In this document: positions 1,920 to 2,621 of the stretch, piece after piece | How the letters are laid out: the number at the start of each line of letters is the position of its first letter | Position numbering within the stretch: position 1 is the first letter of the stretch | Assembly (NCBI RefSeq): GCF_018617485.1 | Contig: NZ_JACSKH010000002.1 | Location: 124,001-188,000, forward strand | Source: Exiguobacterium sp. s124 | GTDB taxonomy: Bacteria > Bacillota > Bacilli > Exiguobacteriales > Exiguobacteriaceae | Length of the DNA stretch: 64,000 nucleotides | Direction of reading: 5' to 3' | Program-made: the position numbers and the translations under genes | Notes under the pieces: model-generated | The model's database searches: none | Told to the model about the DNA's origin: nothing | The model's input: only the letters and a program-made list of their open reading frames with translations

Positions 1920-2621
1920 ATGAGTCGTGCTGAAGAATTTTTGGCCTCTTATCATCGAATCGAGGACTACTTGAGTCGAGAGATGGGAGATGGACAACAT
2001 TTCAGCTTTAGCAACATGGTGAATCGGTTAGCGAAACAAAACCCGATCATCGACCGTTATAAAGAAGATTTACATCAAATGAGTCAACTGCGAAATGCCA
2101 TCGTCCATGAGCGACGAGAACCTGATTTTATTATCGCGGAACCACACGAATCGCTCGTTGAATTGATTTTAGAGGTGGAACGGGAGCTACTTCATCCCCG
2201 TCTCGTCATCCCATTGTTTGCGAAATCCGTGGTGACGTTTCAGTCAGAAGACTTTTTGACGGAGGTGCTACGCGAGATTCGCGATAAAAATTACTCGCAG
2301 TTTCCGGTATATCACGACAATGGCTCGTGGCGTGGTCTACTGACGAAAAAAGGAGTGACGAGTTGGCTGGCCGAGACAATCGACGGAACCAACTTATCAC
2401 TCAAAGGAGTCCGCGTGAAGCATGTGCTTCACCATGATCCACATATGCATCGTTATCGATTCATTCGAAAAGATGCTACGGTCATAGAGGCACAACATTG
2501 CTTCACACAAATGAAAGAGGGCGCACGATACGACGCCCTCCTGATTACGAATACCGGTAGCCCGGATGAAACGTTACTTGGAATCATTCGCCCTCAAGAT
2601 TTACTGAACGCGCTCCGTTGA
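1920..2621 (+). CDS. HEPN-like domain fused to a CBS domain pair
   Basis: A 233-residue soluble protein with an AAGGAGG ribosome site 8-9 nt before its ATG. Residues 1-93 are helical and end in RNAIVH (R58 to H63), an R-x4-H motif typical of HEPN domains, many of which are RNases. Residues about 96-155 (FPVYHDNGSWRGLLT) and 165-233 (DALLITNTG...LLGIIRPQDLL) form two CBS repeats, which usually bind adenine nucleotides. The arrangement suggests a nucleotide-gated HEPN module, but RNase activity is inferred only from the motif. Its 3' end overlaps the convergent monooxygenase gene by 21 nt. Confidence 0.7.
   Translation: MSRAEEFLASYHRIEDYLSREMGDGQHFSFSNMVNRLAKQNPIIDRYKEDLHQMSQLRNAIVHERREPDFIIAEPHESLVELILEVERELLHPRLVIPLFAKSVVTFQSEDFLTEVLREIRDKNYSQFPVYHDNGSWRGLLTKKGVTSWLAETIDGTNLSLKGVRVKHVLHHDPHMHRYRFIRKDATVIEAQHCFTQMKEGARYDALLITNTGSPDETLLGIIRPQDLLNALR

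Follow-up and report, generated by a model that had tools for sequence, protein, structure and literature searches.

The HEPN-CBS gene and its surroundings

The window, a stretch of 64,000 nucleotides from Exiguobacterium sp. s124, contains a gene for a 233-amino acid protein in which a putative HEPN domain precedes a pair of CBS domains. It is a single gene, with azlCD divergent on one side and a gene encoding an ABM domain convergent on the other, and promoter- and terminator-like sites around it occur at chance level only. The features of the gene are as follows.

1920..2621, + strand: open reading frame of the HEPN-CBS protein, 233 aa
1905..1912, + strand: ribosome-binding site AAGGAGGG, 7 nt 5' of the ATG
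1920..2198, + strand: predicted compact HEPN domain, residues 1-93, with four main helices and a short one
2088..2108, + strand: catalytic-type motif L57-R58-N59-A-I-V-H63, placed by conservation and by alignment to HepT SO_3166
2214..2384, + strand: CBS domain 1, approximately residues 99-155, with the best PF00571 stretch at 102-151
2451..2618, + strand: CBS domain 2, approximately residues 178-233, the second PF00571 stretch, with bounds taken from the secondary structure of the model

By Pfam, the five neighbors tested encode HAMP/HD, AzlD, AzlC, ABM, and VanY proteins. A first-pass annotation, made from the sequence alone, had placed the gene in a housekeeping region without an antitoxin neighbor, and as far as these five genes are concerned both descriptions hold: the families are ordinary ones, none of them an antitoxin, and the locus is kept across Exiguobacterium. 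The same annotation had reported R58-N-A-I-V-H63 in the reading frame, where it lies exactly as described, and tandem CBS modules after the N-terminus, which agrees with a PF00571 match of 41.3 bits (cut-off 24) over two stretches. When the full protein is searched, Pfam recognizes the CBS pair alone and leaves the HEPN part uncalled; relatives on four plasmids are annotated merely as “CBS domain-containing protein.”

The predicted fold of the N-terminal domain

The first-pass annotation described the N-terminus as all-helical and HEPN-like. In an AF2 model of residues 1-95 alone (pLDDT 87, pTM 0.80) this region is predicted to be helical throughout, with five helices at residues 3-22, 30-38, 42-46, 48-61, and 77-91. 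The full-length model has a pLDDT of 77 and a pTM of 0.50, and its structural search is uninformative on the HEPN part because CBS structures occupy the whole list. The HEPN-only model was re-aligned to the 131 chains ranked highest by Foldseek, and rows 1-17 were all HEPN proteins, by title or by their known family, with Z from 8.8 to 4.7, while the first other fold had a Z of 3.3. The matches include 1wwp (Z 8.8, rmsd 3.8, 86 residues aligned), 8xeh (Z 8.0, 3.3, 87), the HepT RNase 7ae2 (Z 7.6, 2.9, 91), and 2hsb (Z 7.5, 3.1, 89), together with a second HepT RNase, 5yep, Csm6 5yjc (Z 5.0), and AbiV 9bj7 (Z 4.7). We take 1wwp, 2jpu, 2q00, and Csm6 5yjc to be HEPN proteins. Foldseek alone returned E-values of 0.77 or worse for this model, the first seven rows being HepT or other HEPN toxins. 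A small helical bundle could reach a Z near 8 merely through a common arrangement of helices; because the Foldseek E-values are weak and the Z scores ambiguous, the case for a HEPN domain rests on the fold, the register of the motif, and the invariance of the motif together.

Searches with the sequence of residues 1-93 point in the same direction at low scores. Five Pfam families were matched, all below their cut-offs: DUF4145 (20.5 bits, cut-off 23.1), HepT-like (16.1, cut-off 23.5), DUF3644 (14.9, cut-off 27.6), Cthe_2314 HEPN (13.3, cut-off 27.1), and the unrelated Podovirus_Gp16 (12.8, cut-off 25); DUF4145 and DUF3644 are presumably HEPN-like families. The best NCBIfam match was HepT (NF047751), with 17.8 bits against a cut-off of 60, and no HEPN model of Pfam or NCBIfam exceeded its cut-off on the protein. 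The profile search of residues 1-93 proposed in the first-pass annotation therefore did reach HEPN families, but every match remained below its cut-off. PADLOC gave three weak matches to the protein, one of them to a CARF-HEPN model, and the best PHROGs match (E 0.02) was to a family of unknown function.

A narrow family profile (A7), compared with 177,635 PDB sequences, had HepT toxins as its best three matches (E 0.07-0.14). The result of a broader profile (A8) is weaker, since an unrelated chain, TrwJ, came first (E 0.2) and HepT toxins ranked second, third, and fifth. The printed alignment sets LRNA-x-x-H onto LRNIAVH of the HepT toxin SO_3166, so that the motifs are in register. When profiles were compared locally, the match to 21 HepT proteins was weak (E 0.002, probability 13.5%, score 23.6); the controls scored no more than 19.8 in 20 column shuffles and 16.3 with the reversed profile. 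Loci of DUF4145, in which many reading frames are long or cut, were left out of the profile comparison. At the level of prediction, residues 1-93 are confirmed as a compact helical HEPN domain joined to the CBS pair.

Conservation of the motif

A lone R-x4-H in a protein says little, but its conservation is informative. Relatives of the HEPN-CBS protein occur in 76 of 398 Bacilli genomes, in one of them as a degraded fragment. After the removal of 14 identical copies, 93 loci yielded 79 distinct proteins, which were aligned as 60 divergent homologues outside the Exiguobacterium orthologue group and 19 Exiguobacterium orthologues; a degraded match in genome G175 was left out. L57, R58, N59, and H63 are kept in 60/60 divergent homologues, and the LRNxxxH motif, including R58, N59, and H63, is also kept in 19/19 orthologues. 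Only seven of the 233 columns are invariant among the divergent rows (F7, L57, R58, N59, H63, A73, and P129), and the motif supplies four of these. The first-pass annotation had staked its HEPN reading on the N-terminus not having some other fold and on R58 and H63 being conserved in homologues; the predicted HEPN fold, with rows 1-17 of the re-alignment, and the alignment counts bear it out on both points. A second check found LRNxxxH in 32/32 loci, at least four of which repeat sequences already counted. These loci span one viral contig, one Chloroflexota plasmid, and two Rhodococcus plasmids, and the copy on one of the latter was matched over residues 40-179 only.

Set A1 consists of 40 of the 60 divergent rows (22-45% identical to the window protein), the proteins of contigs L094 and L095, and the window protein. 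Pfam finds CBS in 43/43 of these members; the next commonest names are HepT-like (9), RiboL-PSP HEPN (8), and Apea HEPN (5), with many unrelated single matches mixed in. Three divergent members (L090, L092, and L093), from genomes of about 2 Mb in family f26, carry the motif as RNLMVH; one gene beside them resembles dCMP deaminase and another an M42 peptidase (named by eye in L090). Two others (L081 and L082) have reading frames with about 150-170 additional N-terminal residues, taking the start codons as predicted, and these extensions match no Pfam family at E 0.01.

By sequence, no HEPN proteins are closer than the HepT toxins, which also rank among the closest by structure, so a HepT-type toxin of a type VII HEPN-MNT toxin-antitoxin pair has to be considered. 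In HepT the histidine is followed by one residue and then a tyrosine, Y104, which is the AMPylation site. The title of PDB entry 6m6w names Y104A. The likeness to HepT SO_3166 (5yep) lies in the compact HEPN RNase domain and in the R(N)x4H motif in register, and the differences are that the HEPN-CBS protein carries a CBS pair in the same chain, lacks the tyrosine of the HxY motif, and has no MNT gene among the five neighbors tested. Residue 65, at the position of the HepT tyrosine, is R, K, Q, T, S, H, or M and is tyrosine in 0/79 rows, and the tyrosine two residues after the histidine is also absent in the 32 loci of the later check. With the NCBIfam HepT score far below its cut-off as well, the HepT identity was rejected and is regarded as highly improbable.

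A second alternative is that the HEPN domain is not a nuclease, but binds RNA, a nucleotide, or a protein, with the CBS pair regulating the binding. Some HEPN domains are inactive adaptors, including that of sacsin, and the sacsin domain is among the structural matches; RNxxxH could be retained for binding, and no report of activity was found for any member of the HEPN-CBS family. However, R or H is usually missing from inactive HEPN domains, and here R, N, and H are all invariant in 79 rows, which leaves a purely binding role quite unlikely.

The CBS pair and its possible ligand

CBS pairs dimerize and bind adenine nucleotides. CBS2 carries G221-I-I-R224-P-Q-D227, which retains most of a motif of the nucleotide-ribose type (GxxT/SxxD). 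D227 is present in 59/60 divergent rows, where position 224 is T in 52, R in 6, and S in 2; in the window protein and in 19/19 Exiguobacterium orthologues it is R, not T. CBS1 has GLLT at 139-142 without an aspartate three residues past T142, and of the 60 divergent rows 44 have G at position 145 and 2 have D, the aspartate being mostly absent. The lack of this aspartate in CBS1 and the presence of R224 count against the reading of the protein as a gated RNase.

The structures closest to the CBS pair are human CBS with SAM, AcuB with AMP/ADP/ATP/Ap4A, and DarB with c-di-AMP, tied at Z of about 12-13. The ligand cannot be called, because the pair resembles modules that bind AMP/ADP/ATP/Ap4A, c-di-AMP, and SAM about equally. 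DarB/CbpB (c-di-AMP) and AcuB (AMP, ADP, ATP, Ap4A) share the fold of the CBS pair (Z about 12); to our knowledge neither has a HEPN domain. Membership of the window protein in CbpB/DarB was rejected (NF041630, 13 bits against a cut-off of 125). The CBS proteins of PDB entries 9znf, 9zng, and 9zni are also among the closest CBS matches to the family profile. The titles of 9znf and 9zni name the Methanosarcina ribosome with SriA/SriB and SriC/SriD, and a literature search on the CBS proteins of the three entries found no paper. The available part of a paper on the OLE ribonucleoprotein holds no link to the HEPN-CBS protein.

A resident gene in Exiguobacterium and in an Enterococcaceae-like family

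The HEPN-CBS gene is present in 19/19 genomes of the genus of the window and in 1/18 of the sister genus g2. At 14 named Exiguobacterium loci the surroundings are largely the same, with the ABM gene at 14/14, azlC at 13/14, the HD gene at 13 (one locus being truncated), and vanY at 12. Substitution rates against the window gene were computed for 10 of the 14 loci. The dN of the HEPN part ranges from 0.005 to 0.073, and in six of these comparisons identity is 64-69% over the CBS part but 89-95% over the HEPN part. Where defined, dN/dS is 0.007-0.019 for the HEPN part and 0.017-0.16 for the CBS part, with dS often saturated. The HEPN part is under strong purifying selection.

In family f34, a match was found in 104/105 genomes and in 16/17 genera, one copy (G445) being in two pieces. 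The gene for lspA lies directly downstream on the same strand, followed by rluD, in 20/20 loci from 16 genera. The fhs, HEPN-CBS, lspA, and rluD proteins of one genome of this family (G398) are 100% identical to those of contig L094, whose host is E. faecalis, and f34 is therefore taken to be Enterococcaceae. Family f3 has a strong match (E ≤3e-55) in 68/121 genomes, one of them (G517) split by a stop; the raw tally was 82/121, and the matches beyond the 68 are CBS-only or broken. Since the gene is found in 1/18 genomes of g2 and 68/121 of f3, it is not universally core.

Two of the sequences, L094 (OR846607.1) and L095 (OR849199.1), were deposited as Enterococcus and Listeria phages, yet carry bacterial core chromosome with the order HEPN-CBS-lspA-rluD; L094 also holds fhs-like and pyr-like genes. 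In the Listeria-labelled OR849199 the HEPN-CBS relative adjoins lspA, which does not equate it with Lmo0553, the Listeria form of the c-di-AMP receptor CbpA.

From adjacency, gene order, and annotation, and not from its own record, we infer that EF1724 is the E. faecalis orthologue of the HEPN-CBS gene. In the available parts of PMC7701990, EF1724 is reported as important for fitness of E. faecalis in broth (dVal 0.020) and as conserved in 100% of 24 enterococcal species. This Tn-seq effect could be polar on lspA/rluD. Among the matches listed in the open-licence literature, no paper calls either the HEPN-CBS family or EF1724 a HEPN protein.

Relatives in defence surroundings

Two Exiguobacterium genomes (G003 and G005) have an additional HEPN-CBS paralogue with 36-37% identity, in each case in a defence island. 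The paralogue in G003 seems to belong to an operon, overlapping or adjoining genes for a UvrD-like helicase and a PDC-S18 (NucS_C/DUF5655) protein, with DrmA adjacent, while that in G005 adjoins type III restriction-modification genes and the helicase-nuclease MTES_1575. On a Chlorohelix plasmid the HEPN-CBS gene overlaps one that matches an Eco57I-type methylase, and on a Rhodococcus plasmid it comes after an HNH gene. From these neighbors it follows that the HEPN-CBS architecture is found in defence surroundings too. At locus L068 (620-8025, − strand), in an Exiguobacterium defence island beside DrmA, an apparent five-gene operon encodes a 777-aa unknown protein, a HEPN-CBS paralogue, a 409-aa unknown protein, a UvrD-like helicase, and PDC-S18 (NucS_C/DUF5655); it is possibly an uncharacterized defence system.

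A defence system of the same composition has been reported. DS-11, from DefensePredictor (2026), is an antiphage system of one protein with CBS and HEPN, and according to the available parts of PMC13092281 its protection against phage requires the CBS residue Y157 as well as the HEPN catalytic residues. The window protein could likewise be an antiphage or abortive-infection effector, with the CBS pair detecting a nucleotide signal that arises or changes during infection and switching on the HEPN RNase to halt translation; besides DS-11 itself, the paralogues in defence islands and the two plasmid relatives beside methylase and HNH genes favor this reading. DS-11 is alike in having CBS and HEPN in one protein, but it is a defence gene, whereas the window HEPN-CBS gene is resident at conserved loci. 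Membership in DS-11 was rejected: its model, NF053863, gives 20.7 bits against a cut-off of 260, over the CBS stretch 102-155 only. Across the genome of the window NF053863 matches CBS stretches only, and it exceeds its cut-off in 0/348 sampled Bacillota genomes.

Against an antiphage role stand also the five ordinary neighbors of the window copy, its presence in 19/19 genomes of the genus, the strong purifying selection on its HEPN part, the adjacency to lspA in 20/20 loci of the Enterococcaceae-like family, and the importance of EF1724, the orthologue proposed above, for fitness in broth (PMC7701990). Pattern scans of viral contigs, which used few short patterns and had limited sensitivity, found one distant relative (L101). 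Overall, an antiphage function for the window protein is judged unlikely. A phage origin of the gene was rejected on the same single viral relative and on the phage records: the phages collection gave three, of which two were inspected (the third being OR847038), and those two carry bacterial genes of the lspA locus.

Proposed mechanism and relation to known systems

The reading preferred here is that the window protein is probably a chromosomal RNase of the HEPN superfamily, controlled in cis by its CBS (Bateman) pair, with the activity, the ligand, and the gating all proposed from the comparisons above. The active site of HEPN RNases is shared between the two subunits of a dimer. The CBS pair would dimerize and bind an adenine nucleotide (AMP/ADP/ATP, Ap4A, or c-di-AMP) at a putative site containing D227, and binding would alter the packing of the two HEPN domains. 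The altered packing may form or break a shared active site composed of R58, N59, and H63 of both subunits, and the gated RNase would then trim or degrade RNA according to the energy or second-messenger state. In Exiguobacterium and in the Enterococcaceae-like family, the role would be physiological regulation, not that of a poison-antidote pair.

Ligand-controlled assembly of the HEPN active site is suggested by analogy with CARF-HEPN nucleases, and the ligand may be an on-switch or an off-switch alike. The RNases of the Csm6 type resemble the protein in having a nucleotide-sensing domain fused to HEPN; unlike them, the HEPN-CBS protein has a CBS pair in place of CARF, its HEPN domain is N-terminal, and no cas gene is among the five neighbors tested. 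HEPN-CBS fusions themselves were noted by Anantharaman et al. in 2013, who proposed nucleotide-controlled RNA stability (PMC3710099, available passages). The proteins named there are alr3009, with HD, and a Pelobacter protein, and those passages are silent on chromosomal conservation and fitness. The existence of HEPN-CBS fusions and of the antiphage DS-11 is thus already known, and what is new is the resident conservation at fixed loci. Neither the earlier fusions, DS-11 included, nor the near-universality in one Enterococcaceae-like family appeared in the first-pass annotation.

Most of what is known of HEPN nucleases concerns toxins and defence effectors. In some bacterial groups, the HEPN-CBS gene is a resident chromosomal gene and not a roaming toxin. 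A more tentative proposal is that the family includes a growth-supporting HEPN RNase, gated by a second messenger or by energy state, that needs no antitoxin, serves everyday RNA control, and is resident in the Enterococcaceae-like family and in one Exiguobacterium lineage; the versions in defence islands may have been recruited from this resident form, or the reverse. A resident HEPN domain within a “CBS domain-containing protein” would mean that, in normal physiology, the sensing of a nucleotide is coupled directly to the cutting of RNA. For EF1724, which is probably a HEPN-CBS protein, an unannotated gene of relevance to fitness would gain a mechanism that can be tested at defined positions, namely R58, N59, H63, and D227.
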